Origin: a virus
Strand: one strand, 5' to 3'
DNA length: 64,000 nucleotides
Virus record (IMG/VR): IMGVR_UViG_3300020596_000023
Location: 1 to 64,000 of that record
Numbering within the stretch: position 1 is the first letter of the stretch; every line of letters starts with the position of its first letter. The translations under genes and the position numbers were made by a program. The notes under the pieces were generated by a model. The model saw only the letters and a program-made list of their open reading frames with translations, was not told the origin of the DNA and did no database searches. This document shows, one piece after another, positions 4,105 to 64,000 of the stretch.

Positions 4105-4150
4105 GGAATCCAGCAGGCTTCTTCTTTCTACCGGCAACTGAAACAAGCTG
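4105..4150 (+). repeat. dispersed ~47-bp element, copy 1 of 7
   Basis: It contains GGAATCCAGCAGG, a pyrimidine tract, CTACCGGCAA and AACAAGCTG. It lies between the 4003-4098 gene and the 4203 gene. Its right end overlaps the stem of the 4141-4179 terminator. Orientation is defined as the strand reading CAGG...CTACCGGC; here that is the plus strand. Confidence 0.8.
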
Positions 4151-4179
4151 TAATTACCTAATTACGGCTTGTTTGTTTT
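4141..4179 (+). terminator. Rho-independent terminator
   Basis: A 16-bp stem (AAACAAGC-TGTAATTA pairing with TAATTACG-GCTTGTTT, one wobble) with a 2-base loop is followed by GTTTTACTTT. It ends the 3348-4098 unit and overlaps the end of dispersed element copy 1. Confidence 0.75.
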
Positions 4180-4202
4180 ACTTTAACAAAAGCAATTTAA
4201 CA

Positions 4203-4967
4203 ATGAAATATTTAACAGGCGATTCAAGATGGGTTACATTCTGCCCTAAATTTAGCAATTCTCTTTATTTAGATCAAGCTGGTCAGTTTGATGAAAGACC
4301 TCAAATAGTCACTGGCATTACTCAATTATTAGTATTACTGGCTATGCCAGTTCTATTAGTTTATTCAATTTATTATTTGTTTCTAATACCATTTATATTT
4401 TTTGGGTGGGGTGAATTATATATTAGTTTACCAGTTAGAACTGGAATACAAAGTTGGAGTAGTGCTTCTTGGGGATTCACTTATCACAGCAATACTGTAT
4501 GGATATATGTAGGTGGAGATGATCGTGGTAAATCGTGTAAAACCATAAAAATGCCATGGCATTCTTTTTGGGTAAGAACATCTACTAAATTAAAAAATGG
4601 TAATTGGTTTCATGAAACTATAGATAGGGAATTAGATTTTATGAATGAAGATATTATAGCAGTCGGTGGTTATGGTTGGTTAGAAAAAAACAAATATGTT
4701 GAAGTACACCCGTTTTTAGATAAATATAATAATACTACAGTTACTGCAACTGTAAGTATTATTAAAAGGGAGTGGAGATTTTATTGGCCTGTTTTGACAA
4801 AACTGTTTGTTAATAATGTTTTAACTATTATGGTAGAGTTTGATGAAGAGGTAGGTAAAAATAAAGGTTCATGGGAAGGTGGATTTGTAAGTTGTAAGTA
4901 CAAACTTAGAAAAGACGAAAGTGTGTTAAACTGTTTAAAAAGGCTGGAATCAAAACAACCATTTTAA
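4203..4967 (+). CDS. membrane-anchored hypothetical protein, 254 aa
   Basis: I place the start at ATG 4203. The frame stays open back to 4095, but that part overlaps the dispersed element and the terminator. Residues 37-76 hold two adjacent hydrophobic helices containing LFLIPFIFFGWG. The remaining ~170 residues are soluble and Trp-rich (FWVRTSTKL, GNWFHETID, EWRFYWPVL). The FGWGELYISLP turn recalls a membrane-protein type seen in Bacteroidota phages, but I cannot name the family. The next gene starts 2 bases after its stop. Confidence 0.65.
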   Translation: MKYLTGDSRWVTFCPKFSNSLYLDQAGQFDERPQIVTGITQLLVLLAMPVLLVYSIYYLFLIPFIFFGWGELYISLPVRTGIQSWSSASWGFTYHSNTVWIYVGGDDRGKSCKTIKMPWHSFWVRTSTKLKNGNWFHETIDRELDFMNEDIIAVGGYGWLEKNKYVEVHPFLDKYNNTTVTATVSIIKREWRFYWPVLTKLFVNNVLTIMVEFDEEVGKNKGSWEGGFVSCKYKLRKDESVLNCLKRLESKQPF

Positions 4968-4969
4968 TT

Positions 4970-5320
4970 ATGACCATAATAGAAGCTTTTGAATCAAACC
5001 CATATTTACCAAAGTTTATTCAATTTTGTATTGATCTAAATGAAGACATTAGCAGTTTAGATCAAGCTACTAATAGTCATATTTATGGACTGTTAGTACT
5101 ATGGCTGTCTACGGTAAATATCGGTATTAGTTTAACTAATACTGATATAATATCGTATTTCATAAAATCAGAACTACAAAATAAACTTGACATGGATTGT
5201 TTTTTATTTGAAAAACAATCTAGCTTTACTGTAATTAATCGTAAACCAAAATCGGAATTTATGAAAGTACTCATAGATGCCATAACTACACTAAAATATA
5301 TTCAGAATGATGACTTATGA
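4970..5320 (+). CDS. hypothetical protein, 116 aa
   Basis: A mostly helical, acidic, soluble protein with no motif recognised. It begins 2 bases after the preceding stop. Its last 14 bases overlap the start of the helicase gene (ATG 5307), so the two are probably co-translated. It might be a helicase accessory protein, from position only. Confidence 0.6.
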   Translation: MTIIEAFESNPYLPKFIQFCIDLNEDISSLDQATNSHIYGLLVLWLSTVNIGISLTNTDIISYFIKSELQNKLDMDCFLFEKQSSFTVINRKPKSEFMKVLIDAITTLKYIQNDDL

Positions 5321-8953: not shown

Positions 8954-9001
8954 TAAAATTTTTACTATCGCCGGTAGAAGAAGAAAGTCCTGATAACTTC
9001 C
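8954..9001 (-). repeat. dispersed ~47-bp element, copy 2 of 7
   Basis: On the minus strand it reads GGAAGTTATCAGG, a pyrimidine tract, CTACCGGCGATAG and an A-rich end. It is intergenic, after the 8478 gene, and forms the left arm of the 8972-9020 hairpin. The 3' AARAACWG part is not conserved in this copy. Confidence 0.75.
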
Positions 9002-14205: not shown

Positions 14206-15329
14206 TTTTTGCAAATAGCGAAGACGCTGTATTACAAGCGATGAAAGAATTGAAAGATGAGAGAGATGGTACAGCGCAAGGTATAATAAGTAGGTATCCT
14301 GCTATGAATAGAGCCGTGAACAAGATGTTCCGGCCTTATCATATTTATGGTATAGCAGGGGCAACTGGTTCGATGAAGAGTTATTTGTTTGAGCGATTAA
14401 ACTTAGATTTTACTAATAGTATAATAGCTGTTAGCAAATCCGATTTTACTGCTGATACAATTAAATATTTATTAGACCGCTGTAATTTTGTTGAGCAAGG
14501 TGAAGAGGTTATACTATTTCCTCTAAACAATCAAAAGATCGCAACCTATACCTGTAATTTAGAATTGGCAACAAAACGACAATTACAAAGAAGATTAGGC
14601 GATATAGTAAAACAAGGTCTTAATTATATGTTATCATCTAAGCTCGATCCAATATCAAGCTTGGTTGGTAAAGATATATATATTAAAGTTACTGACGAAG
14701 AGTTAAAGTTGTATGAAGTCATACTATCTCAAATTCATAATCCAGTCCATCAGAAGTTTATAGATAAGACTCAACATTTAGAGTATATCTTAAATTCTAT
14801 TTGGGAAGATTTTGATAATAGTGATTACGATCAGTGCGTACTGGGTATAGATCATGTATTGCTATTAAAAAGATCAGAAGATGACTTTAGTGCTATGAAT
14901 AATGTTATTAGAGATTTGATAGAGTTTGCTAAATTAGGTACTACTATCTTTCCTATAACACAATTCAACAATAACTACAGCAAACCAGATAGGTGGAAGA
15001 ATCCATCTAAGCATTTCCCAGAAAGGGACGATATATACATGGGTGGACAATTTTTGCAAGGGGTAGATGCTATGTTCTGCATGATTCAACCAGCAGCCTA
15101 TAAATGTCAATTGTATAGTACTGCTAAATTACCTACTAACAAATTACTGCATGTATCTAATATTAAAGGTCGTGAAGGTAGTGAAGGTGATTTATGGTTT
15201 AAGAATTATATAGAGCATGGTGAAATAAGACCTTGTATTTTACAAAACTTTGGAGAATATTCTGAACTAACTGAAATTAAAGATTTGTATGAACAAAGAA
15301 AATTTGACCTCGACCGAGGACTTTATTGA
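14202..15329 (+). CDS. DnaB-like replicative helicase (RecA-fold ATPase)
   Basis: The 375-residue protein has a P-loop GATGSMKS (residues 53-60), in which the usual Gly before Lys is Met, a variant also seen in RepA-type ATPases. A Walker B-like strand ends in CVLGIDHVLLL (near 218). FPITQFNNNY (near 250) matches the DnaB sensor-type strand, followed by GGQFLQGVDAMFCMI. The N-terminal DnaB domain is missing, which suggests a short phage version. It overlaps neighbours on both sides (4 and 41 bases), so it is in the replication operon. An AAA_25/RepA-like assignment is also possible. Confidence 0.7.
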   Translation: MIFANSEDAVLQAMKELKDERDGTAQGIISRYPAMNRAVNKMFRPYHIYGIAGATGSMKSYLFERLNLDFTNSIIAVSKSDFTADTIKYLLDRCNFVEQGEEVILFPLNNQKIATYTCNLELATKRQLQRRLGDIVKQGLNYMLSSKLDPISSLVGKDIYIKVTDEELKLYEVILSQIHNPVHQKFIDKTQHLEYILNSIWEDFDNSDYDQCVLGIDHVLLLKRSEDDFSAMNNVIRDLIEFAKLGTTIFPITQFNNNYSKPDRWKNPSKHFPERDDIYMGGQFLQGVDAMFCMIQPAAYKCQLYSTAKLPTNKLLHVSNIKGREGSEGDLWFKNYIEHGEIRPCILQNFGEYSELTEIKDLYEQRKFDLDRGLY

Positions 15330-16119
15330 AGATGCTACTTTGATTGAAGCTGTTGAAGACCAACAGCCAATGCAAACAATGCTTCTAACTACACAGACAG
15401 AACTTGATCCATTATCAACTATGTCTATAGCTAAACGTGAGGAGTACGCTTATGCCGCAGCGTTATTGCAAAGTGAAGCTGTAAAAGGCTACACAAGAGT
15501 TAGTGATGTAATGCAAGCTATGGAAATAGCAGATTATTTACGTAAACCAATTGCATGGGTGTTAAACCACTTCACCCCGATAAATGGTAAACTAACTTCT
15601 GATAGTCATGCTGACATGATCTTAGCTCAAGAACGTGGATTGCAGCTAGAAATTATTTATAACTACAAGCCACTGCGCTATTTATTTGTAAACGGATTAG
15701 ATGAGCCTATAAAAGAACATCTAATAATGGATGATTCAAACTACCTAATTTTTAGAAATGCTTTAGAGCTTGAGCTAATGTCTGAAATACAACGTAAAAA
15801 TAAAATCGTATGTGTTTGGGCAAGCATGGATGATTCATCCATCTATGATAGAATTAGCCGGGTTAAAGGCACATTAGAAATAAATGGTAAAGTTCAAGTT
15901 GCCTATGGTCAATTCCTCTTTAGTGAAGCTGAGACAGCATTATTAACTTCCAAGAGTAATTGGAAATGTTATCCTGCTGACTGTTTATTAGCTAGATCTA
16001 AGAAGAGATTGAATAGAACTCTCTCCGGTTGGGTTACTTCTTTTTACAATACAGAGGAACTCGCTTCTATGGAAGATATTGCAATTTCTAAAGAAAGTAT
16101 TGCAAGCGACACAAAGTAG
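15289..16119 (+). CDS. RecT-like single-strand annealing protein
   Basis: A 276-residue protein. The centre matches the RecT/Bet style: DVMQAMEIADYLRKPIAWV (near 80), INGKLTSDSHADMILA (near 104), and in the C-terminal third NWKCYPADCLLARSKKRLNR ... YNTEEL (about 225-262), like the W..YP..ML.ARA...YT.EEL pattern of RecT proteins. It would anneal ssDNA for recombination-dependent replication. The acidic N-terminus (residues 1-40) is probably disordered. It overlaps the DnaB-like gene by 41 bases. A hairpin spans its stop (16110-16132). Confidence 0.6.
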   Translation: MNKENLTSTEDFIEDATLIEAVEDQQPMQTMLLTTQTELDPLSTMSIAKREEYAYAAALLQSEAVKGYTRVSDVMQAMEIADYLRKPIAWVLNHFTPINGKLTSDSHADMILAQERGLQLEIIYNYKPLRYLFVNGLDEPIKEHLIMDDSNYLIFRNALELELMSEIQRKNKIVCVWASMDDSSIYDRISRVKGTLEINGKVQVAYGQFLFSEAETALLTSKSNWKCYPADCLLARSKKRLNRTLSGWVTSFYNTEELASMEDIAISKESIASDTK

Positions 16120-17921: not shown

Positions 17922-19004
17922 ATGATTCCAAATACAATATATTCTAAGAGCGAACTTAGGAAGTACTTAAAAAAATTAAATATAGATGATATTGATCTGT
18001 ACTCTATTTATACTGGATATACTAGACAAGACATATTAACATCGTTATATAATGGTAAACATCTTCATTCTTTTATGAGGTCTGATTCTACACCATCGTT
18101 AGGATTTTATATAGGTGACAATGGTACTATACGATTCAAAGATTTTGGTGGAGATGGTGGAGATGTTTTTACAGTAGCTAATATACATCATAGAAAAGCT
18201 TTACAAGGTGGATTATTTGTAGAGCTTTTACAAGCTATATACAATGACGTACTAAAGAAAAACAATTATACTGTTTCTAAGGAGCAGATCACATTATTGC
18301 CAAAACAAAAAGTTACTGTAGATGTAGACCTTAGAGATTGGTCTAATTATGATTATCAATATTGGGTTAGAGGTTATGATTTTGACAGTTTAGAAGAAGT
18401 GGAATATTATTCTACTTATGCTGTTGATATAATCTATCTCAATGGTAAGTTCTATAAAAAGTCTTCTCCTAAGTTTCCAATTTATGGCTATTTAGTAACT
18501 ATGCTAAATGGAGACTTCTTTTGGAAATGTTACTTACCAAAACAAACTCCTAAATTTATTACAGGTGGTATAGGATTAGATTTTATGCCTTATGTATTAA
18601 ATGATTTGAAACCAACTGATCCACTAGGATTAATTAAAAGTAGAAAAGATGCTATGGTTGTGTATGACCATATACAAACTTTGTTAGTACCAAATTCTGA
18701 AAATTCTACTGGTATGTCGAAACAAGAATTAGGCTTATTTAAGAATAGAAGAGTTAATACTTATATTGAACAAGATGAAGGAGGTTTGATAGGTATCAGT
18801 CAATTAGAAACAAATTTGGGAAAAACGGTAACTCGCAGGCTTCTCCCTTCTACCGGCGACGGCAACAAACAGATCAACGACTTTGCTGAACTTCGTAAGT
18901 TCTTACGTAAAGATAAATTTAAAGAGTTCTGTCAATGGTATTTTCCACAACCAAAATTAACTTTAACTGAAATTCATAATTTCATAAATAAACTAAAACA
19001 CTAA
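17922..19004 (+). CDS. dnaG: DnaG-type DNA primase
   Basis: A 360-residue phage primase. The N-terminus has the CHC2-like beta layout HSFMRSDSTPSLGFYIGDNGTIRFKDFGGDGGDVF (about 45-85), but with no clear Cys zinc ligands. The TOPRIM part shows KSRKDAMVVYDHIQTLLVPNSENS (near 240), TYIEQDEGG (near 284, in place of FDxDxAG) and LPSTGDGNKQINDF (near 310, the KDxND-like element). It would make primers for the family A polymerase. Dispersed element copy 3 lies inside this gene at codons 303-317, without breaking the frame. Confidence 0.85.
   Translation: MIPNTIYSKSELRKYLKKLNIDDIDLYSIYTGYTRQDILTSLYNGKHLHSFMRSDSTPSLGFYIGDNGTIRFKDFGGDGGDVFTVANIHHRKALQGGLFVELLQAIYNDVLKKNNYTVSKEQITLLPKQKVTVDVDLRDWSNYDYQYWVRGYDFDSLEEVEYYSTYAVDIIYLNGKFYKKSSPKFPIYGYLVTMLNGDFFWKCYLPKQTPKFITGGIGLDFMPYVLNDLKPTDPLGLIKSRKDAMVVYDHIQTLLVPNSENSTGMSKQELGLFKNRRVNTYIEQDEGGLIGISQLETNLGKTVTRRLLPSTGDGNKQINDFAELRKFLRKDKFKEFCQWYFPQPKLTLTEIHNFINKLKH
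18827..18872 (+). repeat. dispersed ~47-bp element, copy 3 of 7
   Basis: It reads GGTAACTCGCAGG, a pyrimidine tract, CTACCGGCGAC and ACAAACAG on the plus strand. It is entirely inside the primase gene, where it encodes RRLLPSTGD. Confidence 0.8.
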
Positions 19005-26048: not shown

Positions 26049-26096
26049 CAGTTTTTGCATGGTTGCCGGTAGAAGAGGAAAACCCTGCTAGATTCC
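26049..26096 (-). repeat. dispersed ~47-bp element, copy 4 of 7
   Basis: On the minus strand: GGAATCTAGCAGG, a pyrimidine tract, CTACCGGCAAC and AAAAACTG. Intergenic at the convergent junction. The first 13 bases differ from copy 1 by a single base. Confidence 0.8.
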
Positions 26097-26129
26097 ATTC
26101 TTACCCAATTCTTACCCAATTCTTACCTA
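26097..26129. repeat. three 11-bp tandem repeats
   Basis: ATTCTTACCCA occurs twice, then ATTCTTACCTA. The 11-bp period is one DNA helical turn, like an iteron, though three units may also come from slippage. Confidence 0.6.
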
Positions 26130-34100: not shown

Positions 34101-37100
34101 CTTTACCAGTAAATGTGTTACCCTTAATATCAAATTCAACAGCATCAGGTATATTACTGAATAAAACTTTTTTAGCTTGAATTGATAACGGATTCGTGGT
34201 GTCTTTCAAATGTTCTGGAACATCCAATTGTACACCCCATTGCTCATTGTCTAATTCAAGTACATTCAGATTAGCAATAGTAAGTTCGTTAGAACTTAAA
34301 TTTTCTAAGCTTACTGTAGACACCCGTTTGTTGCCAACCTTAACAGCAGATTTGGTATAAATGTGAGATAAGTCTTTAGGGGCAACAGCTAATAATTGTT
34401 CTAATACTGTACCTTTAATTAAACCCGGAATCAATATTTGTACAGATGTTTTAATTTGTACATTCTCCATCGTATTAGTAACACTGTTATAAGATCTATT
34501 AGCATAGTAAGGCTTTAATACCTGAAGTACTTCTTTCAAATACTTATCGTTGTAGTCCCTACCAGCCCTAAGATCAGCTATAAGCTTTTGCATAGTCTTA
34601 CCACGAATACCCCGATCTTGTAAATACTTTTCAAAAAAGTCCAGTGTGATGAAACCTTGCCCATCTGTAGAATTTACAGATAAGTATGGAGACATCTTAT
34701 TATAAACATCTTGTTCTAACGCATTTTTAATTCCTGAACCAAATGCAACAGAATGGTCATAGCTTAAACTTGTATATTTCTTATTAGAGACTTGTAAAGC
34801 TTTAGCTAAGTTAACACTGTTTGGCTCTAGGGTGTCAGGTGTTATTATAACATCTGGCACAACTATATACTTACTACGTTTACCTCGATGCTTAGTTGAA
34901 AGATATTGGGTAGGTGAAATTAATTGCTTAGATCGTTTATTGTGATCTGTTATACTTTTGTATTCAGAATTATTACCATTAAATAAACTAGCAATCTCTT
35001 GTTGAGCTATAAAGTTATTTAGAACAAACTCATAAATCATATCAGATTCATTACTGTAAGAAGATTTCTTAACATCTTCTTTGAGATCACTAGCTATAGC
35101 AGAATAGAGGTTAAAGCTTTGAGCTACTTCAACCTTTACAAAGTTATTTATGAACTTATCCAGCAATCTACGTTTGTTTGGAGATAAAGTAGAAGTATCA
35201 TAAACTCCATTATAAAATATAGACAATGGAAAAGCTAGCTTAGATTCTTCACCTTTAAAAACTAACTGGTCTTTTTCATCCAATCCTATAATATCGCTAA
35301 TCTTTCTAACTTTACCTTTTTCCGTATAAGTCAAAGACAAAGTTTGAAATACTTGACCAGTTGGTAATCCATCAGCATCTATTATAATAGGATTGTTATT
35401 ATCATCTACAGATTTGTAGTGATGATTTACAAGAAGTTGATCTTTGACTTCATCAGATAGAATCGTAGTATCTGCAAATAATAACAGTCTAGCATTATCA
35501 GCTTTTCTTAAATCATGATAGATTATATTTAGTAAAGCATTCTTTAACGGAGTATTATCAATCAATTCCCCATTAACAATTCCATTATATTTAGGAGCTT
35601 TAATTACAGCTTGATTGCTACTATCTGATAAGGTTGGTAAACTGTAATAGCCATAAGCTTTTTCCTTTAAGTATAGAGCAAGCTTAGAAGCAGACCAATC
35701 TAAATCAGTAACACCATCATACATTTTACCTGTAAATGTATCAGCATCGGTAATTCCATTAAACCAATAGAATTTAAAGTTTTTAGCATTATTGTCTTTC
35801 AAATCCATAGTCTTGAAGTCAACAATCGCATTCAACCAGTTACTGTACTTCAAAGCATTGTCTTGTAGATAAGTTTGAACCATATCTACAATAGTATTAT
35901 AAGCGTTCATTTTATTTATAGTACGCTTATTAAATACCTGAGCTAATCTGCTAAAGAATTTATTTATAAACAAAGGCTTCTGCAAAGCATATTGCAAAGT
36001 TCGTTCAGCATTGTAAAAGCTTGGCTCTTTTAGATCTAAAAACACTTCTTCAAAGAATGCAGCAATTTCACCAACTCGTCCTTGCTCATCAAACGTAATC
36101 TTATCATGAATCAGAGTTTGATTAAACAATTCTTCGCCAAGCTTAAATATAGCTGCTCTAATTCTTTCAGCTATTTCAGGTTTAGTTCTAGTCTTAACTT
36201 CACTTTTTTCAAAGTATGTCGTATTACCAACAGCATCCAAAGCTAAATCTAATTGAGGCTTTGTTATAGTAATGCCTAAAGCTCTAAGCATGGATAACAT
36301 ATCTTTCTTAGTAGCAGAATCTACACGATCTTTGCTTTTACTCAAAGCTTGTCTAACTTTAATATTCCATTCACGAAACTTCTGAATCTTAGCAGAAGTA
36401 ATCAAGCTTTTTCCTTTATTGCTATTGTAAGATTCTACTACAACTTTAACAGCATCGGCCATACTATTAGTAAGTCTGTAACTAATAGTAGGAACTCGTA
36501 ATGCTAAAGTTTTATCAGTAGTATGAGTTAATTGAATTGAATTAACTTTAGGCTTATTGAAAGTTGTAAACAACTTCTCTTGGTATTCCTCATCAGTTTT
36601 AAGTCTTTGATAAATTAAAGCAAAGCTTGGATTCAATTTAGCTAACTCTAATATTTTAGACATCATTTCATCGATGTCAATAGAATCTGCTAATTGCGTA
36701 CTAAGACTACTGTAGATTATAGAGAAGTTTTCTACTTCTGGCAATTCCGCTAAGTTGTCTTTACTTGGCACGAAACTGAATATAGGGTTTCCCGAAGCGT
36801 CAAAAGTAAACTTAAACGAACTAATTTTCTCAGTTGTCATTAAGAATCGCTTCAATTCAAAATCAACCGTAGCTTTAGAACTTACTTTAGTCTGAGATGC
36901 ATCATCCCAAAGCTTACTCATTTGTTGTCGGGTTAAAGCCGATGTATCAATATTTTCATCAGAGCTTACATCAACTTTAAGGTTGTTCTTAACATATTCT
37001 ACAACTTTACTCCAATAAGTGTTATCGTTAGAATCTAACAGATTCATCAGATAAGTTGTAGTTTTATAGGCTATAGAATCTTCGTCTTTACCAATTAGAT

Positions 37101-40100
37101 TTTTAGCTAAAGTTAATTTGAACTGGTTTTTCAAAGTAGGAACTTCACCAGATTCAATCATTTCTGGAGTTATAGCAGATTTATATTTATCTCCATAAGC
37201 TTTAATAAATCTCATAGAAATTAATCCACCATATTGAATATATTTAAGTTGTTCGTCTGGCTTGAATATCGCAAAAGCATCTGGCAAAGCTTGACCTGTA
37301 GGAGCTTTAGAGAATCTGAGTATGTCTTGGTTTGGATAATTCATTTTAGCAGAGTTTTTAAAATCACCTCTACTAGCACTTTCAAACAGTAAATCAATAC
37401 GATCAATTTTACCAAAGTAAGTTTGAAGCATTCTATATAATTTCTCAAAAAATGCTTTTACCTTACGAGAGAATCCTTGTGGTTCTTTGCCAACTTGTTT
37501 AGTCAGCATAAAGCCTCTAAACTTCTCAGCTAAAAATTCTTCTACTCTAAGTTTGGAATCTTCTGTCAGTAAATCTTCTTCTAGTCCATATCTTTTATTA
37601 GCTTCTTCTAACAAATTCAATCTATCTGATTCATTCAAATACATATTGAATATAGCATGGAAAGCTTCGTGGTACTCAGTACCAACTATACTATATTTAG
37701 ATAGAGTTACAGCAGCTTTTCTAAATACTCCATAAACTACATCACCATTATCCATTAATTGTTCTGGTAATATTTCAATAGGAATTTCGTCACCTAGTAT
37801 ATTCTGGAAGTTTTCAATTTGAGATTGATTAGACTCAATTAATTCGTCTTTAGTAGAATTAGTAGAAGCTTTGAAGAATAATGCATCTGTGAGCAAATCA
37901 GTTAAATCTGAATCAGTAGAATCTTGAATAGAATTAGGATCAATTGAAGTGATAGCATCAACTTGAGAAAGATCGGAATTAACCGGGCTTTCCTCTTCTA
38001 CCGGCAATGGGTTAAGAACTGTATCACTGACTTTATCTTTCCTAACGTTCTTAGCTTCACTAACTTCCGTCTTACTCTCATCACTCCAAGTTTTTAATAC
38101 AACTCGAGTATTAACATTATCAACGCCATTATTAGCAGCAATCTTACCACCAAATAAAGACAGTATATTACCCTCAGAATCTTCTGTAGTTTTTATATTA
38201 ATTCCAAACCTATCACTATTCAAGATGCTATCATGAAGTTCTTGTTCACGACCATCTTCCAAATATAAGTTGTACCTTTTTCCAGACAGTACATCTTTAA
38301 GAGTGTCAGAAAATACTTCTCTATTAGCGTCATTTAGAACTAATATGTCTTTACCATTTATAGGAATCTTATTTCCAACATTGCTGTTATATTCCTCATA
38401 AGATTCGTACTTAGTTTTCTTACCAGTCCAAACCCTTTTAGTTAATCTGATCTCATCATTAGGAGCTACATAGATTGTGTACAACTCTGTATAATCTCCA
38501 TTTAATATTTCTATTCGACCTTTACTATTAGCATTTGGACCATGAACTAAAAACGTAGGAGCATATAGGTTATCTTTGGCATCTCGAACATTTGATCTAA
38601 ACAGAGTTATCCTATTAATAGCTTTTTTTATCTCAATCATTGAATCATCTTTAAAAGGACTTAACCCAGTCTTTAATCCTTTTATAAGTTGATTTAGTAA
38701 TTTAATAACGTCTGTAATTGACTCAGAATCTAATTTGTTACCGCTTATATATAATGGTATAGCAGTTTGAGTATCGTCATAGTCGGTAAAATCTATTGAC
38801 AAATTGGGGCTAGCTGGAACTAATACAAAAACATTACTTGAACTGTACAACATATCTTCATTGTACGTGGCACTAATGGACTTAGTGTCGTAGGCTTGAC
38901 CCTCACCGATGAGTGGGGATAATGTAGAGCTTACAACAGAACCGCCATCTTCGGGAATGTGGTACAGCCGTACAGACATAGCTTTGGCAATCCTGGACAA
39001 TAGAGAAAGCTGATTATTCCCAGTTTTTTTCCTTGCACCAGCAGATACTTTCTTTAATAAAATTTTACTATTTTTGTTTTTAGCAAAAGCAGTTCTAATT
39101 TTTACAGTCTCTAATAAGTTAACTCTACGAGCTAACGCAGCGTTTGAATTACCATCGGATTCAAGTCTGTTTATTTCTTTCTCAATAGAACTAACTCTAT
39201 TGATATAACCAATCAAAACATTTTTATAATAAACACCTATTGGAGCTTCGTTAGGGTCAGTTGATTTGAAGTTATCTTCGACTTCGGGTATTTTCAAATC
39301 AAGCTCAACTTGACCATCTTTTTTAATAATCTCTCTAAGCTCGTTAAGAGCTTTTACAGTTTTAGCATCGTTATCAGATATAACGATAGTTGTATCAGTC
39401 TCAGATACTATATCTGGATTGACTATACTATGCAAGTAAATACTTGCAAATTGGCTTTCATCTGATCTTTCCTGAGCTATTGAATCTTGTTCAGTTATAG
39501 CTTTGATAGGTTCTTGTTCTGTATTAGTATCAGTATTGTAAACTGGAACAAGTTCAGCAACTGTGTTTACTGTATCTAACTCTAATACAATCTCATCTGG
39601 AATATTATCTACAACTGGAACTTCCAGATTAATTGATTCATGTTCAGAGTTTAATTCAGTTGCAATAATTTCTCCAACTGTTGTAGTTGTTTCAGACTCT
39701 ATGACTTGTTGTACAATAGCAGAATTATCTTGAGTATCTTCAGATAACTCCTGAACAGTTAGTTCAAGTTGTACAGCAGATTTAACTGATTTAGTAGCTC
39801 TGGATTTTCTGGTTTTTTTAAAATTAGATTTAACGGATTTGGTAGCTCTGGATTTTCTGGTTTTTTTAGGATTAGCTATAACAGAGTTAAGATCAATTAT
39901 AATAGCTTGATTTTCTTCAATTGGTTTAATTAGTTCAATTGATTTATTTGCTTCATCAGAAACAATAGTTTCATCAGAAGCAATAGTTTCATCAGAAGCA
40001 ATAGTTTCAGAATCAGTAATAGTACTAATAATGTCATTTTCTAAATCAGTAGTATCAGCAATAGAACTCAAACTATCTTCTTCTGGATCAACTAACGTAA

Positions 40101-42477
40101 TGTTTCCAATTGCTTTACTACGATTAGTTAAGTTTATTCCAAGTCTGCGAGATAATTCAGATACCCTTCGTTTGGCTTTAGATATTAACGGTTCTTGATT
40201 TTCCTGTAATTCTTTTAAAGCTTCCTTTAAGATTTTGGCTTCTTCCTTATTCTTAGGGTTTAATTCAGCTTTAATTTCTTTTACCGTCTTACCTTCTTTG
40301 ATTTTAGTATCAATATCTAAAATCAATTTAGCTTTGCTATTATCTGCTTTTTTCTTGTCTTGAGCTTTAAAGGCATTTTCAACTTCTTTGATTCTATCTG
40401 GCTTTAAAAAGTCATTAGCAAGAATATCCAGTTGATTTGAAAACGCTGTAGCTATCTTAACCTCTGTCATAGCATCAACCGCAGCTTTCAAATCTTCTGT
40501 AACTTCACCTTTATAAACTAAGTCTTCACTTATTCCTTGTTGTCCTAATTTTTCAATAGCATTATACAATCTATTCTGATCTGGAAAAAACTTAGTTATT
40601 TCTGGATTGTTTTTTAATACAGATATAGCTTGCTTAGTAGATAACTTTTCTACAAGCAATTGCTTACTATTCCGTTCTACAGGATCAGAACTATTACTTT
40701 GTAAAATGTTAGTAGCTTTGGCTAAACCTGCTTGACTTAATTGATTGAAATAATTCTTGTCTTTTTCAGCTTGCGTTATAATATCAGCTAAAGCTTGCTT
40801 TATATGTGCCGGCTGTTTAGAATAGAATAATTTCTGATAAACTGATTTGTAACTATTTTCAGCAGCAGTAGCACCAGCTTTTAAAGAATAAAATACAACT
40901 TCATCTAAGCCAGTAATTCCATTAGTATTAGGATCAGATGTAACATTCTCTTTAAAGTTTTTGCTTGCAAAAGTATCCATGAGCAAATCCATGTTTCCAG
41001 TTTTGGAAGCAGCAGTACCCATATCAAAGCCAGACTTGTAACTCTCAAGCTTAATTTCTTCAGTAGCATCTTCTTTAGATAAACTACCATTGTTATAAGA
41101 TTTTACAATAGCTTGAATTCTAGTATTGGCTTCTTTGATAAAACCTAGCCTACTTTCGATCTCTCCAATCTTGGAACTGGTAGCAGCTTTATTATCTGCT
41201 TTATTCATAAATCCACCAACAACATTGAAAGCTTTACCGCCAAGCATTCCAAAAAATCCAGCCTCTAAACCTTTATCATCAAAAGCATCTTCTAAAAACT
41301 TAGTAACAACATTGTTACCTTTTTTACCTAAGTTAGTTCCAACTCTTTCTCCTGCTTGACTAGAAGCATAGTTTATCATTTCTTCTGGAAACTCACTAAA
41401 TCCAGAAGCTAATGGCTTCAAGTATTTTTCGATAATACCCGGATTATATTTAACCCCAGACTTTAAAACTTCGTTCTGAGCAACACTAACTTCTTTACTT
41501 ATAATACCAGTCCTAGTCCTACCTCTAATGCCTTTGAATATTCCAGCTACCTGAAATAAATCAAAAGCAAAATTCATGGTGTTTAACTTATAAGTTGTCC
41601 AACCTGATTTGTTTCCTAAAGCTTTAGCAAATTGTTCCCTAGTTAAATCTTTAGGAACTTCATTCTGTCCGTCTAAAACTTTTTGAAATTCCTCATCACT
41701 CAAATCAGCTAAGACTTTGTAAGAACTGTTCTTAACATTTACTGAAACCTCCGCAGCATCTCTCATAGATTCAGCATTACGCATGAATCCAGCAATTGTA
41801 CCAACTTCACCCCAATACTTAGTAGCATCACTAACTTTATCAGCAAGTTTTACAGTCTTTGCTAACCATCCAGCACCTTTAACTATACCAGTACCACCAG
41901 CTAACATACTAATACCGCTAGCTATAGATACCAGGTTTTGTGCCCACCAACCTGTATCTCCCCATTGCCAAGATTCGCCGGGATTCTTCTGATATATAGG
42001 AGCATATTCAGCACTTTTTTCTCTAATGCCTTTACCAAACTCAGTCATCCAATTACCAAACTCATATTCTTCTTTGGCTAAATAATCTGCAAGTCTACCT
42101 CCAGTAATATCTCCAAAAGCACCAACACCTTCAATTGTACCACCTATCAATTCACCTACCACAGCTTGATTTAAAAATCCCCAAACTTGGCTACCCTTCG
42201 TTTGTTTACTTGCTCTAACTTTATCTAAGCTATCCATAGTATATACACCATAAGGCATATACTTTTCATACTCTTTAGGATCAATTGTAGTATTTGATCT
42301 ATCATCAGATAAAATAGCACCTGTCTCTACATTAGGACTAGGAGTAGACAAGTTCTTCTGCAAGCTTGTACCTAATCTTGTAGGATCCGGTCTGACATCT
42401 TTAACTAAAGTCTGATTATCAAATCCTGTATTTTTATTCAAGCTTAAACCAAGCCCAGTACTTCTCTGCTTTCCCAT
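31165..42477 (-). CDS. giant virion RNA polymerase fused to zincin-type protease and internal virion protein
   Basis: A 3770-residue single frame. Residues 1-~560 include several glycine-rich hydrophobic helices (SIASGISMLAGGTGIVKGAGW near 185), as in ejected internal proteins. About 560-800 is coiled coil. About 800-1000 is acidic low complexity with SDETIA repeats and a basic KKTRKSRATKSVKS repeat (about 870-900). HEAFH (1603-1607) is a zincin metalloprotease site. The C-terminal half holds the RNA polymerase core: GKYSFLSLKVVGFLPEAVGSTIVLP followed by TGHDFDVDSEY, with Asp3014/3016/3018 as the DxDxD magnesium site of YonO-like crAss-phage RNAPs. It is presumably packaged and injected to transcribe early genes. 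Copy 5 of the dispersed element lies within it. Confidence 0.85.
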   Translation of the reverse strand: MGKQRSTGLGLSLNKNTGFDNQTLVKDVRPDPTRLGTSLQKNLSTPSPNVETGAILSDDRSNTTIDPKEYEKYMPYGVYTMDSLDKVRASKQTKGSQVWGFLNQAVVGELIGGTIEGVGAFGDITGGRLADYLAKEEYEFGNWMTEFGKGIREKSAEYAPIYQKNPGESWQWGDTGWWAQNLVSIASGISMLAGGTGIVKGAGWLAKTVKLADKVSDATKYWGEVGTIAGFMRNAESMRDAAEVSVNVKNSSYKVLADLSDEEFQKVLDGQNEVPKDLTREQFAKALGNKSGWTTYKLNTMNFAFDLFQVAGIFKGIRGRTRTGIISKEVSVAQNEVLKSGVKYNPGIIEKYLKPLASGFSEFPEEMINYASSQAGERVGTNLGKKGNNVVTKFLEDAFDDKGLEAGFFGMLGGKAFNVVGGFMNKADNKAATSSKIGEIESRLGFIKEANTRIQAIVKSYNNGSLSKEDATEEIKLESYKSGFDMGTAASKTGNMDLLMDTFASKNFKENVTSDPNTNGITGLDEVVFYSLKAGATAAENSYKSVYQKLFYSKQPAHIKQALADIITQAEKDKNYFNQLSQAGLAKATNILQSNSSDPVERNSKQLLVEKLSTKQAISVLKNNPEITKFFPDQNRLYNAIEKLGQQGISEDLVYKGEVTEDLKAAVDAMTEVKIATAFSNQLDILANDFLKPDRIKEVENAFKAQDKKKADNSKAKLILDIDTKIKEGKTVKEIKAELNPKNKEEAKILKEALKELQENQEPLISKAKRRVSELSRRLGINLTNRSKAIGNITLVDPEEDSLSSIADTTDLENDIISTITDSETIASDETIASDETIVSDEANKSIELIKPIEENQAIIIDLNSVIANPKKTRKSRATKSVKSNFKKTRKSRATKSVKSAVQLELTVQELSEDTQDNSAIVQQVIESETTTTVGEIIATELNSEHESINLEVPVVDNIPDEIVLELDTVNTVAELVPVYNTDTNTEQEPIKAITEQDSIAQERSDESQFASIYLHSIVNPDIVSETDTTIVISDNDAKTVKALNELREIIKKDGQVELDLKIPEVEDNFKSTDPNEAPIGVYYKNVLIGYINRVSSIEKEINRLESDGNSNAALARRVNLLETVKIRTAFAKNKNSKILLKKVSAGARKKTGNNQLSLLSRIAKAMSVRLYHIPEDGGSVVSSTLSPLIGEGQAYDTKSISATYNEDMLYSSSNVFVLVPASPNLSIDFTDYDDTQTAIPLYISGNKLDSESITDVIKLLNQLIKGLKTGLSPFKDDSMIEIKKAINRITLFRSNVRDAKDNLYAPTFLVHGPNANSKGRIEILNGDYTELYTIYVAPNDEIRLTKRVWTGKKTKYESYEEYNSNVGNKIPINGKDILVLNDANREVFSDTLKDVLSGKRYNLYLEDGREQELHDSILNSDRFGINIKTTEDSEGNILSLFGGKIAANNGVDNVNTRVVLKTWSDESKTEVSEAKNVRKDKVSDTVLNPLPVEEESPVNSDLSQVDAITSIDPNSIQDSTDSDLTDLLTDALFFKASTNSTKDELIESNQSQIENFQNILGDEIPIEILPEQLMDNGDVVYGVFRKAAVTLSKYSIVGTEYHEAFHAIFNMYLNESDRLNLLEEANKRYGLEEDLLTEDSKLRVEEFLAEKFRGFMLTKQVGKEPQGFSRKVKAFFEKLYRMLQTYFGKIDRIDLLFESASRGDFKNSAKMNYPNQDILRFSKAPTGQALPDAFAIFKPDEQLKYIQYGGLISMRFIKAYGDKYKSAITPEMIESGEVPTLKNQFKLTLAKNLIGKDEDSIAYKTTTYLMNLLDSNDNTYWSKVVEYVKNNLKVDVSSDENIDTSALTRQQMSKLWDDASQTKVSSKATVDFELKRFLMTTEKISSFKFTFDASGNPIFSFVPSKDNLAELPEVENFSIIYSSLSTQLADSIDIDEMMSKILELAKLNPSFALIYQRLKTDEEYQEKLFTTFNKPKVNSIQLTHTTDKTLALRVPTISYRLTNSMADAVKVVVESYNSNKGKSLITSAKIQKFREWNIKVRQALSKSKDRVDSATKKDMLSMLRALGITITKPQLDLALDAVGNTTYFEKSEVKTRTKPEIAERIRAAIFKLGEELFNQTLIHDKITFDEQGRVGEIAAFFEEVFLDLKEPSFYNAERTLQYALQKPLFINKFFSRLAQVFNKRTINKMNAYNTIVDMVQTYLQDNALKYSNWLNAIVDFKTMDLKDNNAKNFKFYWFNGITDADTFTGKMYDGVTDLDWSASKLALYLKEKAYGYYSLPTLSDSSNQAVIKAPKYNGIVNGELIDNTPLKNALLNIIYHDLRKADNARLLLFADTTILSDEVKDQLLVNHHYKSVDDNNNPIIIDADGLPTGQVFQTLSLTYTEKGKVRKISDIIGLDEKDQLVFKGEESKLAFPLSIFYNGVYDTSTLSPNKRRLLDKFINNFVKVEVAQSFNLYSAIASDLKEDVKKSSYSNESDMIYEFVLNNFIAQQEIASLFNGNNSEYKSITDHNKRSKQLISPTQYLSTKHRGKRSKYIVVPDVIITPDTLEPNSVNLAKALQVSNKKYTSLSYDHSVAFGSGIKNALEQDVYNKMSPYLSVNSTDGQGFITLDFFEKYLQDRGIRGKTMQKLIADLRAGRDYNDKYLKEVLQVLKPYYANRSYNSVTNTMENVQIKTSVQILIPGLIKGTVLEQLLAVAPKDLSHIYTKSAVKVGNKRVSTVSLENLSSNELTIANLNVLELDNEQWGVQLDVPEHLKDTTNPLSIQAKKVLFSNIPDAVEFDIKGNTFTGKELHEKIQSVFSELSTKGTNELIKSISDPKNVAVILEDYMNKNNLPHHYKDLLKINEAGDNFVISLAIPSFSNKFQSLLISLFIQKGIKIPIAGGHATLLSDSFISSFIDTDSIDTTSFTTEIVERIKATGKINLKQSIVSDGKSKYIETECLLPAWTSKFFENGQRININELPEEARNILGHRTPLEGKYSFLSLKVVGFLPEAVGSTIVLPAALVAQTGHDFDVDSEYLLFQYLDKENNPIKYNLAKPVKDWDNKELNNFIFDSYKAIIEHPSQIEEHIVPSSVEEIKVVIREQKKLLNIVEDGQNHNSLAAQDKLRSTNMMGTHLKGIAAVYNSMIPIVQKLKLATTELIGVSYDLSKYDLKDLQDKYGQVAVEGNKATINHKQFGWNNQDFTDPNGDLISIGLAKTLANVLDIVKEGTLLNLNLATASNYMLMRTLGIPLKEASLLLIQPVIMRAYSASQNSMIYNGKAVDPVKAYMKALKDISKLTNTPYVAYKDIPAVDLNSAEMEASILYFKNEKPKSFAKASIAELQKAENQYLYQLGLYKTWNRLTKINYDYKKVMDGTTPDRTKATNIPELFKSIDSYDSLNASDSTVYSMYGDEARDVRTVLDTTDAYKSIKTYRDNMEAYLRVLDKYFLDLKGEVLTAANTYGTKYSPEVHKKIVEVASFSLLRNDMTDVEISRILKAVPNTNTKMDIDEFKQLSTANKLWFIKYKLRESISETNILYHLSPKISEGDFNLKSFYEIKFDKPHLSDGLDTYLTDSFAALLNSNSEFLKDLGEDLIKYNYITQGFAFSGNSFGNYIPVTELLTRGWLDGLQQASKFGLTELEITYEGLIDLAGRNGWKDPKLSKINFINKNTLPEGDAFRDINGMNTFSLSKAKKKELGFNPNFYTFIIKDGNTTEIIQTSVAKVDDVFWFTPVNRLSNGYIKTESGQFSVIPEQNAFFSYMNQYSGNIEDIGDSSRLDSYDEDAVTC
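37975..38021 (+). repeat. dispersed ~47-bp element, copy 5 of 7
   Basis: Plus strand: GGAATTAACCGGG, a pyrimidine tract, CTACCGGCAATGG and AAGAACTG. It is inside the giant RNAP gene (minus strand), where the reverse complement encodes LPVEEESP. Confidence 0.8.
39779..39868 (-). repeat. 48-bp tandem repeat coding for a basic 16-residue unit
   Basis: Two copies of a 42-base block (39779-39820 and 39827-39868) at 48-bp period differ by two bases. They encode KKTRKSRATKSVKS twice in the linker of the giant protein. Confidence 0.75.
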
Positions 42478-46488: not shown

Positions 46489-49400
46489 TAAATGTTTTTA
46501 AATCTAGTACCAGCAATACTAGGCTTTATGTCCAAACCAACTTCGATTATAGTCATCTCAATAAAGTTTGCATTAGTTATAACCAATCTAACTATGATAT
46601 TATTAGATAAAAATGGTCTAATATTCATAACCTTACTAGCATTTAAATTTGCAGTATTAGGTTCGTCAGTAGCTAACAAAACTGCATTATCAGGATTAAT
46701 TACAGTATCTCTGAATTTACCAAATATCCAACCATCACCCCTTTTAGCTAAGTTAGTATTGCCAATACCCGGCAAGTTAGTAACTCTACTTAATTGAATT
46801 AAACCACTACTTTGATTCTGATTGTAAACCATTATTTGATTAATAGTATTAGTATGACTAATGTCTTTATCAGAGAAAGCTTCTGTTAACCAACTTATAT
46901 TAGCTATCACCAAACTCTGTTCTGTATTAGATAGGCTAATATCAATGTAGCTGTTATAACTAAAACCATAGTAGTAACCTCTTAAATTTGGATTCAAATT
47001 GTGTGCCCACAATCCAAACAGTACAGTAGAAGGATTATTATAAATAGCTCTTAAACCTCTAATGCTAAACATATAAACAGTGGGAAAACAATCATGCTTA
47101 CATACCCATTCTTGTCTAGCTAAATCGTAGCTATAAGTATGACCAGCATTGACTTCCTTACCATCGCTAGCTACAGTTGTTATAAACAATCTATGAAAGT
47201 CTTTGTCATAACCAACTGTAACTCCTGAACCATTAAAAGGATTATCTAAGTAACTTACAACTCTCTTAAAAATAGTTTCAAACTCCCATCTGATAGCATT
47301 AGTCAATTCTTCTAATTGACCATTAAATAAATAAAATCTACCAGTAGTAGCATCAAAGAAAACAACTCCATTAGGACATACTATACAACTCCATTTACTT
47401 TTACTACCACTAAAAGCTCCATCACTTTCAATAACAGGTTTAGGCTTTTGTAAAAATAAGTCTGCACCATATAAAGCTACAGCACTATCACCAGTCTCAA
47501 GAACTTCCTGTGGATCAAAATAGTAAGTACCATATTCAGTAGTTACAAACAATCCATTATTATAACTTCTGACATTAGTAACTACACCAGTATTACGCTC
47601 CATTTCGGAATAGTCGTTAGCTCTAAATGTTCTGAATCGAATCATTGTAGATTCATCAGCTTGAACTAAGCTTCTAGCTATTCGATATGGAAACTTACTG
47701 ATAGTATCGGTGGAACAAGTAGTATCTTCCGCACACCCCTTTTTGACAAATCGCCGGTAGAAGGAGAAAGCCTGTAATTTACTGTAATCACCGTTGTATC
47801 CGTAGTAGTTGCCATGCCTTAAATATTCGATCTCATCAAATGGTGTTTCTACAGGTACAACATATTGATGTAGCATACTCTTAGGATAAAACTTTTCCCA
47901 ATCTTCTGTACCTTCCTGTCTTAGCCAAAGATTGGCAACATCATAAGCAGGTACAGTATATAATGCACCTACATAAGGATTAATCAATCCACTAGGAGTT
48001 GGCATTACATTGTGAAGCTTAAAACTATATTGAGCTATAACACAATCTCCTCCATGAACAAATCCTACTTCTAATGATGGTAAGAACGTAGTACCAGTAA
48101 AAATCAATTCTTGGCTATAATAATTATTATACAAGTCAGGTCTATAACTATAAAGGCTAGCCATTAATAAACCATGATCTGTATTAATCATAGTATTATC
48201 AAAGTCAACTTTTAAAGTTTCTTCACCTAACAAATTAGAATCAGGATCACCACTAATTAAAACATTCTCAGGATAATACTGAGTATTAGTAATCTTTCTG
48301 ATTGCTTCATAATCATTATCATCTATAGTATCTTGGAGCATTCTATAATATGATAAAGCCCCATTAATAAAACTATGATCTGCTTCAACCCCTGGACTAG
48401 TTTCAGGAATACTTATCTTAAAATGAGTCTTTAGATAATTAGCTGTAATAGTAGGAGTAGTATTTAATAAACTAAAATTGTGAAACCTAAAGCTTTCAGC
48501 ATGTTCTACAGCAGTATGACTTAATGGAAGAGCAACAGGATCAACACTGTTATACTCTTTGTTACTGATATAACCTAAAGCAATGTGACTACTATTAGTA
48601 AAGTCTCTTTGAGCATAAAAGATACCCCAATAACAAATCTGAGATTTCAGTTCATTTGGAATAATTACATTACTTATGTCCAACCTTAAAACTCTAGTAC
48701 ATAATCCATCAAGATCAACAATAGCTCCATCAAAAAATACATCATTGCCAAACCGTCTTTTGATATGTTCAAGACTTGGAGTCTTATGGTGTCTTACGTT
48801 TTCTCCTGCAAAGTCTGGAAAACAATCTGGATAAGTCTCAGTAGCATTCTCCCAATAACCCATAGTTCCATCAGCCTTAGAAGTATCAAAGACTTGAAAG
48901 AACTTAACCGCATTTCCTAAATCATTTGCAAGTTCCATTTGAGATAAATGAACAGCAGGATTAGCAGCAATAATATTTGCTAATAACGCTGTCTCATCTA
49001 AACCAGTTAAGTTAGTACTAGGTCTTGATAGAAGATCAAAATCATTTTCAGCAGAAGTATTTTCCCAATCTGTAGTGCTTGCAACTCTACCGGGAATATG
49101 TAGTATGTTCCATACTCCTTTATGAGTATAGAATCCTATGTACATTGCATAGACTTCATCGGGAAAAAAGCCTTGTAAACTTACTTGACGATTAGGGTCT
49201 TTATAACTTTCATCAGGTAAATCAGATTCAATTCCAATTGGAAATTCGTAATTCCAGTTAATTATAACAGCGTTAGCAATCTCTTGCAAGCTTTCAGGAT
49301 CAATACTATCTTCTGTAAGATTTCCTAAATACAATCTCTTATCAAGTATTGTACCAGTTTCTGCTTTGGTATATTTAGCATTTACTCCTAAAACTTCTTC

Positions 49401-61349: not shown

Positions 61350-61388
61350 TACTATTAAGTTTATTTTAGTTTTTAAAATCAGTCTCTA

Positions 61389-62891
61389 CTAATAACCGAA
61401 TGCGGTATAATCTGGTTGGAACTGAACTGACCAAGTGTCATTAAACATAACCAAACCTTGAGTGCATAAGAAGTGAACACTTGTACGATCTGTACCAGTA
61501 GCAAGCTGCAAGTATTCTCCATTACCCTTGTAATTCAAGAACCCTGTCTTACTTACATCTGCCATACCTTGTTCCAAGCCTTTAACTTCACCACGACCAG
61601 CTTCCGACAACAATTGTAAGTTGCTTTGACCATCATAGTCAGAAGCATCTACAATGTAGGCTTCATAACTTGCAAGACTACGACCACTTACAGGGTGAAT
61701 TGGAGCAGCATCAGCATAACCAGACTTATTCAAAAATTCCAATGGAACCAATACATAAGTAGGGCCATCAATATGCTTGTAAGCTTGAATGTAGTTACCC
61801 AAAGTCAAACGACCTTGCACTTCACTCAAGAAGTCTTTACTAGTATTAGCAGATACTAATTGGAAGATTCGAGAATCAACCATAGCATTATGCCATTCCT
61901 CAGCAAAACCACCACCACAGAAAATTGGAATAGTTTGATTGCCATCATCAGGCTTACCACGGAAAGTTGCACCAAGAATCCTATTGATATAAGATTCCGT
62001 CAAAGTTGAGTAAGTCAATGATTGTGTAATCTGCTGCTTCAAACCGGGAGCAGAAGGAACATAATCATTACTGTAATCATCAAACAAGTGAGTTGTACCG
62101 TCAGCAGCATAGCTATATTCAGACAAGAACAATTCCATGTGTTTGTCTTTCTTAAATTCCAACCATTGCTGGAACTCATACCAAGACAACCAGTAGTTAC
62201 TGTTATTACCCATAGTATCAACAAAGTTAAATTCTACCACTTTGTTGGCAATGTTACCTGCCATGTGATAAGACTTACGCAATGTGTTGATACAGCCCTT
62301 CCGACGACCCGGAGTTTGAACATGTCCGTAGTTGCCAATAGAATTAGCAACACTAACTTTACCCGGACCGACTTGACCCCAAATTGCATTAGGTAAAGTA
62401 TCACGATACGGAATAGTAGCACCTGGTCTAATTGCCATCAATCGGTAACGATACCGACTTTCACTAATACGTTTTGGTGTATCTTGTACACGACAAATTA
62501 CACCTGATGGAGAACGAACAGAAGTTTCATAGATAAACCAATCGGTTTTGAAATCCAGAATAACTTCCATACCACCACCAATAGTATCGGATGAGGCGTA
62601 ACTAGAAGCAGCTACAGCCTCAGTTTCTTTCATAGCACCAATAACCGGATACTCAAAGAAATGATTGTGTACTTCTGCTTTACCAATTCTACCACCACCT
62701 TCTAGCATTGCTAAGAGAGGAAACATTTTAGAACTATCATTCCAATTTCCCATCAACTTAGTAATGACTGGCCTCAACAAGTCTGGTTGAGACATATAAG
62801 CAGAAGTCAGGTTATTAACTGAGGTAAACTTATCTGTATTGATTCCCTCAGCATGTACCGTGATCCTACTATGCAGATCATTTGCTGCCAT
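61389..62891 (-). CDS. major capsid protein, crAss type
   Basis: A 500-residue protein with the appearance of crAss-like HK97-fold capsid proteins: helical N-terminus (NLTSAYMSQPDLLRPVITKLMGNWNDSSKMFPLL), E-loop-like Gly segment, then LSWYEFQQWLEFKKDKHMELFLSEYSYAADGTTH (near 220-255), NRILGATFRGKPDDGNQTIPIFCGGGFAEEWHNAM, and a C-terminal AxFGY end. Length fits crAss MCPs (about 490-510). It forms the icosahedral head. Codons are GC-richer than surrounding genes, in line with high expression. The scaffold-like gene lies 33 bases upstream. Confidence 0.9.
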   Translation of the reverse strand: MAANDLHSRITVHAEGINTDKFTSVNNLTSAYMSQPDLLRPVITKLMGNWNDSSKMFPLLAMLEGGGRIGKAEVHNHFFEYPVIGAMKETEAVAASSYASSDTIGGGMEVILDFKTDWFIYETSVRSPSGVICRVQDTPKRISESRYRYRLMAIRPGATIPYRDTLPNAIWGQVGPGKVSVANSIGNYGHVQTPGRRKGCINTLRKSYHMAGNIANKVVEFNFVDTMGNNSNYWLSWYEFQQWLEFKKDKHMELFLSEYSYAADGTTHLFDDYSNDYVPSAPGLKQQITQSLTYSTLTESYINRILGATFRGKPDDGNQTIPIFCGGGFAEEWHNAMVDSRIFQLVSANTSKDFLSEVQGRLTLGNYIQAYKHIDGPTYVLVPLEFLNKSGYADAAPIHPVSGRSLASYEAYIVDASDYDGQSNLQLLSEAGRGEVKGLEQGMADVSKTGFLNYKGNGEYLQLATGTDRTSVHFLCTQGLVMFNDTWSVQFQPDYTAFGY

Positions 62892-62924
62892 ACAATAAAA
62901 ATTAAATTAGGTTATAGAATACTT

Positions 62925-64000
62925 TTAAAATACCAATTTAGATACATCAGCTTTTACTTCAACCCCACCATTTCCAGTATTTATTCTTTGTGTTGGTGGT
63001 GCAGTAGTTTGTTTAGTTATAATAGCTTTAACTGTACGTCTTGTAGTATCAGAAGTAGCTTTTACTAAAAGCTTATTAAAATCAGCTAATTTAATTTTAC
63101 CAGTACTAACTGCATACCTTAGATATTTCTCAGCAAGGAAATGCTCATCAGTCATAACTTTACTAAACTTAGCTTCTTCTGTTTCACCATTTTTAGGTTC
63201 GGCTAAAAACTTATAAAAATTAGTAGCATCGGAAGCTTCCAGTTTAAATCCGTTCAAATCCAAACTATTTATCTTAGATTCAACTTTACCCCAATAAGCC
63301 TTACGATCTGCTAATTCTTTAGATTGTTGTATACTAGCTTTTTCAACCTTCAATTGATCTTGCTCTTGATAGAACTTAGTCAAAGACTCTTTAGCAGTTT
63401 TATAATAGTCTGAAAGCTGTTCGGTGTCTCTCAAAGCCGTATAGATGCTCTCAGGGTCTTTCACATGAGCGACATTGGTAAGGAAATGTAGCACTACAGA
63501 CTTGGTTTGATCTGCTGATGGTGTTTCTGATATGCTTCCAAAATCAATCCTGTCATTATTATTACGAGCCAAAAATTGATCCACTGTGCCGCCACCTATT
63601 AGATGTAGGATAAGATCAGAAGCTATTGGGTTGTCTTTACCTAAGTCTTCAATAGTTGCTAAGGTTTGAGCTTGGCCAACCTTTGTGACAATATCAATTA
63701 AAGATTCAGCCGAACCGTTAAAAAACAAGCTTCTCTCTTCTACCGGCAATAGTGAAAGAACAGGTTCAAGTCGTTCTTGCACTATTTTGTTTAAAATAAT
63801 ATGATCTACATTTACATCTTCATTTAAACCAACTTCACCAGTCTCTTCATTAAAACTAAATTCTTCTTTCTTTGCAATAAGAAAGTCTTTACCATCTCGT
63901 TGTACAAACAAGTTACCATCTGCACCAATTATGTAAGGTAATTCATCAGTAGTACTAGTTTCTCCAGTAGTCTCAAGACTATCAGAAGTATCGGTACTAT
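62925..64000 (-). CDS. scaffold-like capsid assembly protein, 5' end cut by edge
   Basis: The frame is open to the right edge (first full codon at 63998) through an acidic Ser/Thr-rich stretch. The TTG at 63911 is not a convincing start. The visible ~358 residues are acidic and helical, with a coiled coil at about 210-260 of the visible part (TKFYQEQDQLKVEKASIQQSKELADRKAYW) and a flexible Thr/Pro C-terminus (ITKQTTAPPTQRINTGNGG). Its position immediately before the capsid gene and its composition fit a scaffold. Element copy 7 lies inside, encoding SLLPVEERS. Confidence 0.6.
   Translation of the reverse strand, partial: STDTSDSLETTGETSTTDELPYIIGADGNLFVQRDGKDFLIAKKEEFSFNEETGEVGLNEDVNVDHIILNKIVQERLEPVLSLLPVEERSLFFNGSAESLIDIVTKVGQAQTLATIEDLGKDNPIASDLILHLIGGGTVDQFLARNNNDRIDFGSISETPSADQTKSVVLHFLTNVAHVKDPESIYTALRDTEQLSDYYKTAKESLTKFYQEQDQLKVEKASIQQSKELADRKAYWGKVESKINSLDLNGFKLEASDATNFYKFLAEPKNGETEEAKFSKVMTDEHFLAEKYLRYAVSTGKIKLADFNKLLVKATSDTTRRTVKAIITKQTTAPPTQRINTGNGGVEVKADVSKLVF
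63717..63763 (+). repeat. dispersed ~47-bp element, copy 7 of 7
   Basis: Plus strand: GTTAAAAAACAAG, a pyrimidine tract, CTACCGGCAATAG and AAGAACAG. It lies in the scaffold-like gene, antisense to it. The left end is the most diverged of the seven copies. Confidence 0.75.

Follow-up and report, generated by a model that had tools for sequence, protein, structure and literature searches.

The window analysed here covers the first 64 kb of a virus record of 73,196 bp (IMG/VR record IMGVR_UViG_3300020596_000023). It raises the question of why an element of about 48 bp should recur seven times along a phage genome, with each copy inverted relative to the last. We found that this element is one version of a motif that occurs in many copies, evenly spaced on each strand taken separately, in more than 12 further crAss-like genomes, and that its sequence diverges together with those of the phage primase and the neighbouring ligase. 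The answer that we favour, tentatively and with somewhat less than even confidence, is that synthesis of the complementary (lagging) strand is initiated at the element in a strand-specific manner, with a phage primase reading the site.

The Element in the Window Phage

The exact core TTCTACCGGCRA was found seven times in the whole record, each time within a copy of the element, and the reversed control pattern was not found. The 9.2 kb of the record beyond the window added no copies. In a position-weight scan, the seven copies scored 40-49 bits and any other sequence at most 10.5 bits. These results agree with the seven positions and the consensus given in a preliminary description of the window. 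With up to one mismatch allowed, CTACCGGCRA had 11 matches against 1.8 expected; no shuffled sequence reached 11. The element extends from about -22 to +25 relative to the core, with the consensus CGGWA-N5-CAGGCTT-Y5-TTCTACCGGCRA-N6-AARAAC. The copies are as follows:

4104..4151, + strand: copy 1, core TTCTACCGGCAA at 4126-4137; intergenic, upstream of the Acb3 gene; 41.8 bits
8954..9001, - strand: copy 2, core at 8968-8979; intergenic, upstream of the DNA polymerase gene; 39.8 bits
18826..18873, + strand: copy 3, core at 18848-18859; sense in the primase gene, in a variable loop near its 3' end; 48.5 bits
26049..26096, - strand: copy 4, core at 26063-26074; intergenic, where two gene blocks converge; 43.3 bits
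37974..38021, + strand: copy 5, core at 37996-38007; antisense within a 3770-aa gene homologous to RNA polymerase (RNAP); 49.1 bits
47737..47784, - strand: copy 6, core at 47751-47762; sense within the muzzle-protein gene; 45.3 bits
63716..63763, + strand: copy 7, core at 63738-63749; antisense in a gene between those for the major capsid protein (MCP) and the portal; 46.1 bits

Three copies are thus intergenic, two lie sense and two antisense in genes. Copy 1 was counted as intergenic because the likely start of the Acb3 gene is the ATG near 4203. The orientation runs +,-,+,-,+,-,+; given four plus and three minus copies, strict alternation has p=1/35, which is weak when taken alone. Copy 7 is unchanged in a near-identical contig (L063), and searches with single proteins of the window phage returned a near-identical 16-kb contig as the sole relative. 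The window gave no Rfam match and no tRNA.

The predicted proteins mark the window phage as crAss-like but distant. Its TerL shares ~26% identity with those of Crassvirales, matches to the crAss muzzle protein and the MCP family are present, and a giant gene has RNAP homologues in cr3_1.

Distribution among crAss-like Phages

The prototype of the element is YYCTCTACGGGGGA, and the window copies are the version of one lineage. Genomes carrying the same kind of element include Carjivirus (crAssphage), Diorhovirus, Delmidovirus and Whopevirus. With refined models, 18-35 sites were found per genome, on both strands and both in and between genes, whereas Markov-shuffled genomes had few or none. The genomes were found in two steps. 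A mismatch-tolerant scan of related records gave two genomes with at least 12 copies of TTCTACGGGGGA, and when dispersed 11-mers were next searched for without bias, this kind of motif ranked top in many crAss-like genomes. The word CCTCTACGGGG was top in Diorhovirus cr3_1, Delmidovirus cr11_1, crAssphage ZA and Carjivirus communis; CCCTTTACGGGCC is the Whopevirus version, and CCCTCTACAGGGG, CTTCTATTGGGG, CCTTTATGGGG and others occur in uncultured genomes. What defines the element across Crassvirales is the core YTTCTAC-GG, its presence in many copies on both strands, regular spacing along each strand, and a primase of the insert type. The window phage conforms to this, with TTCTACCGGC, seven copies and both extra segments in its primase.

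A different, longer element of ~40 bp, TTTCGGAACACCTCYCGCCCTTGTGGCCATTAAACTG (also written GCCCTTGTGGCC), is present in ten copies in Crevaviridae cr127_1 (MT774393.1), where it includes close inverted pairs. Its CGGAA and AAAC flanks are similar to those of the window element, and by this resemblance the two elements may be related, the window version linking both forms. For the ten Crevaviridae copies, spacing was not significantly even (p=0.13). No convincing array was seen in the crAss001 half-genome (CTCCTTCTGGAG), the phi14:2 half-genome, cr116_1, FPSV-S29, G013 or G015. The candidate motifs of genomes G008 and G010 (CAGGTACNGG) are overrepresented yet unevenly spaced and were therefore not counted, and TTCTTCTACNGGGGRA was too permissive as a search pattern. 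When IMG/VR was scanned for exact matches to the pattern of the window version, all hits were chance matches that lacked the pyrimidine tract. As a separate observation, GATGAAAATGG is overrepresented in phage genomes G014 and W06 (7-10 dispersed copies).

In 147 Bacteroidota genomes, a set that was not selected by name for the actual hosts, the crAssphage version had 55 matches, no more than the reversed control. The element is phage-specific and not host DNA. Several small contigs (for example C17, C27, C35, C44, C47) of the Chitinophaga silvisoli assembly NZ_QTJV01 are apparently contaminating crAssphage fragments. No description of the element was found in the open-licence literature searched, motif strings included.

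Even Spacing on Each Strand

The same-strand gaps of nine genomes had a coefficient of variation (CV) of 0.19-0.59 (Fisher p~3e-20 versus uniform placement), and shuffling of the strand labels alone also abolished the evenness (p~4e-14). A tenth genome (G048) had a CV of 0.37, and all ten were more regular than uniform placement. Four held-out genomes, fetched afterwards, gave 0.42-0.48 (p~2e-10). The mean same-strand spacing is ~4-11 kb; in the window phage it is ~20 kb, with a CV of 0.19 (p=0.015). Among the pooled gaps, those below 0.25 times the mean made up 3% (22% expected) and those above twice the mean 2.4% (11.5% expected). Since short and long gaps are both depleted, the pattern reflects a spacing rule and not merely the loss of close direct repeats.

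The positions of copies on opposite strands were largely independent, with no repulsion and a slight attraction at close range. Such copies lie as close as 26-40 bp, and 37 of the 39 neighbours less than 500 bp apart were inverted. Even spacing on each of two nearly independent strands results in alternating orientation. Strand switches were above expectation in the other genomes tested, significantly in most. The strict alternation noted in the preliminary description therefore holds in the window and persists as a tendency in relatives, but as a rule it is not primary and follows from the per-strand spacing.

Selection and Turnover of Sites

Of the sites in three annotated genomes, 34 lay sense and 30 antisense in genes; the 22 between genes were ~3 times the expectation, and the genic sites occupied several reading frames. 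The lack of gene-strand bias and the use of several frames indicate selection at the DNA level. The preliminary description had named DNA or RNA; of the two, an RNA-level role was rejected because gene-strand bias is absent.

Between genera, most sites are not homologous in position, and co-location is still ~10 times that expected by chance, which together indicate turnover of sites within an inherited system that keeps its spacing. One crAssphage copy is polymorphic. It lies within a tail gene at 68494 of BK010471.1 and, to judge from a full-length 551-bp match, is probably present in two other records as well. In ZA and others it is replaced in frame by a patch that is 9 nt shorter, with flanks ~98.6% identical. 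The replaced patch measures ~26-35 bp, so that the clean 47-bp insertion which the preliminary description had suggested looking for was not what we found.

Primase, Ligase and Co-variation with the Motif

The protein proposed as the reader of the element is encoded in the window as follows:

17922..19004, + strand: DnaG-like TOPRIM primase (phrog_12622, E=1e-12; alignment; Toprim and CHC2 family matches)

It has a degenerate, cysteine-poor CHC2-type N-terminal domain and both of the extra segments typical of element-bearing phages. These N-terminal segments are common to such phages, with G007 lacking the first. No match was found in the PDB with the primase alone as query, and a profile gave weak matches to DnaG and T7 primases. 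IMG/VR was then searched separately with each of the two primase types, and long loci were scored for their top dispersed word. The motif was the top word in 17 of 17 loci with the insert-bearing primase and in none of the 37 with the other type. Each of the 17 loci had 3-11 generic motif matches, compared with 0-1 for a control pattern.

Motif divergence was compared with protein divergence in 14 genomes by partial Mantel tests controlling for TerL; several tests were made, and the p values are uncorrected. It followed the primase (r=0.38, p=0.004-0.011) and the neighbouring ligase (r=0.43, p=0.001), which are the first and last enzymes in lagging-strand synthesis. SNF2 gave a weak signal (r=0.27, p=0.03). 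No significant tracking was observed for portal, MCP, RecT, PD-(D/E)XK nuclease, Dda-like helicase or RNAP, nor for the IHF-like protein (r=0.23, p=0.09). Within the primase, agreement with the motif was somewhat closer for the N-terminal than for the C-terminal part; in DnaG, the equivalent of the N-terminal part reads the template sequence.

Discussion

The proteins of one rival pathway also co-occur with the element, and the window encodes a member:

15289..16119, + strand: RecT homologue (jackhmmer from the RecT of genome W04, E=1.6e-68)

Homologues of RecT, Dda-like helicase, PD-(D/E)XK nuclease and DUF932 were present in 10 of 10 element-bearing genomes compared. They would suit an oriented signal of the Chi type, read by host AddAB or by a phage RecD/Dda-like helicase with the nuclease and RecT, which protects DNA ends and starts recombination. 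Such a signal must recur every few kilobases in both orientations. The element, like the Chi of RecBCD/AddAB, is oriented and does so, and its even spacing per orientation fits. Chi, however, is a signal of the host genome of 5-8 bp, whereas the element is far longer, differs from one phage lineage to another and shows no enrichment in Bacteroidota genomes, and hence is not host Chi. Its divergence does not follow RecT, nuclease or helicase beyond phylogeny. We consider a Chi-like role unlikely, though likelier than the other rivals. The strand-specific nick sites of T5, the phiKMV-like phages and tf, which are made by a phage nickase in virion or replicating DNA and sealed by a phage ligase, resemble the element in being dispersed, lineage-specific consensus sequences. 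Phage tf has 14 nick sites per genome with the consensus TACT/RTGMC, and in tf and related phages all of them are on one strand (PMC3517423). The ligase is also the protein best tracked by motif divergence. The element, in contrast, is found on both strands of every genome with independent even spacing, nicking of both sites of a pair 26-40 bp apart would break the duplex, and no ligase was detected in the window phage. Nicking thus appears improbable to us.

If the element instead bound a protein that organises, segregates or packages DNA, such as the IHF/HU-like proteins of the phage, this would account for copies that are dispersed, lineage-specific and mostly evenly spread. That role requires neither separate even spacing on each strand nor independence between strands, and the IHF-like protein does not significantly track the motif; we rate it about as low as nicking, or slightly lower. 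The element might also serve the virion RNA polymerase that crAss phages carry, as a promoter, a terminator or an RNA element, and the C(UACG)G-type hairpins possible in some copies could suggest this. The equal sense and antisense counts, the genic position of most copies and the lack of an Rfam match make it very unlikely. The polymorphic copy could point to a mini mobile element or a clean insertion. Its in-frame replacement with a 9-nt length change argues against clean mobile insertion, as do the even spacing and the concerted, lineage-specific sequence, and we regard mobility as highly improbable. Among the roles listed in the preliminary description, a replication-linked site is therefore the one favoured, and a mini mobile element is not supported.

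For a primase-read site there are partial parallels. DnaG and T7 gp4 are TOPRIM primases that read the template sequence, as proposed for the element; their recognition triplets occur everywhere, whereas the element is rare and 12-47 bp long. By function, the nearest known kind is the single-strand initiation (ssi) site, and we know of no precedent for an even genome-wide array on both strands. At ssiA and ssiB of RSF1010, which are long, strand-specific sites with one orientation per strand, the replicon-encoded RepB' primase starts the complementary strand. The element likewise forms oriented sites on each strand, evenly spaced and nearly independent of the other strand, and a dedicated replicon-encoded primase is proposed here and known there. 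RSF1010 differs in having two sites on a small plasmid with a clear hairpin, as opposed to 7-35 sites per phage genome with inconsistent hairpin support. Its primase is of the archaeo-eukaryotic type, a family treated in PMC4538821 and PMC4434180, and that of the element-bearing phages is of the DnaG/TOPRIM type.

Under the initiation-site reading, we infer that the element would act when exposed as single-stranded template, where the phage DnaG-like primase would bind it and lay a primer. New fragments on each strand would then have set starting points a few kilobases apart, in place of scattered trinucleotides. Forks or displaced strands of either polarity could cross any region, so both strands would need sites throughout. 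Each strand would be selected to retain one site per ~4-11 kb (~20 kb here), wherever the local sequence permits, and the two strands would be nearly independent in site placement.

Several observations weigh against this proposal. The 5-20 kb between sites would make for long Okazaki fragments, and known DnaG-type primases read ~3 bases, not 12-47. Very close inverted pairs number 33 against 13 expected, an excess that the proposal does not predict. Covariation in hairpin pairing is mixed, being positive in W04, BK and G012 and absent in W03 and G009, and G007 has the motif although the first primase insert is missing. The association with primase type is confounded with lineage, and the link to the primase is correlational and partly phylogenetic. 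The ligase, which adjoins the primase, fits equally well; the primase given the ligase is not significant (p=0.12), and the two signals are inseparable at 14 genomes. That no ligase homologue was detected in the window phage counts here as well.

Features Adjoining the Copies

The open reading frame listed at 4095-4967 (+), of which 4203-4967 is likely coding, matches Acb3, an inhibitor of the cyclic-oligonucleotide-based antiphage signalling system (Pfam PF25187, E=2e-21). A terminator-like hairpin (ACAAGC...GCTTGTTTGTTTT) at 4140-4185 lies directly 3' of copy 1, and an 11-bp tandem repeat, ATTCTTACCCA, with 2.8 copies at 26097-26127, adjoins copy 4. The 3770-aa gene (31165-42477, - strand) matches two separate giant genes of cr3_1, the crAssphage homologues of which are annotated as RNAP and RNAP-associated protein. 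This suggests that it is a fusion of the two.

Implications for crAss-like Phages

It is possible, though somewhat less likely than not, that in many crAss-like phages, forming a large group, discontinuous synthesis starts at programmed points set by sequence. A primase with an expanded recognition domain would then co-evolve with an even, genome-wide array of 12-47-bp sites on each strand, and the Okazaki-type fragments would have fixed ends. We know of no genome, cellular or viral, that is replicated in such fixed fragments. Viruses of the crAss-like group rank with the most abundant of those associated with humans, and little is known of their replication. The even, strand-resolved array of phage-specific sites is a hard physical constraint on any model of it. 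The array would also offer a genomic signature by which contigs could be assigned to this phage group, and a rare example of a lineage-wide, joint change in a dispersed recognition sequence and the protein that reads it.

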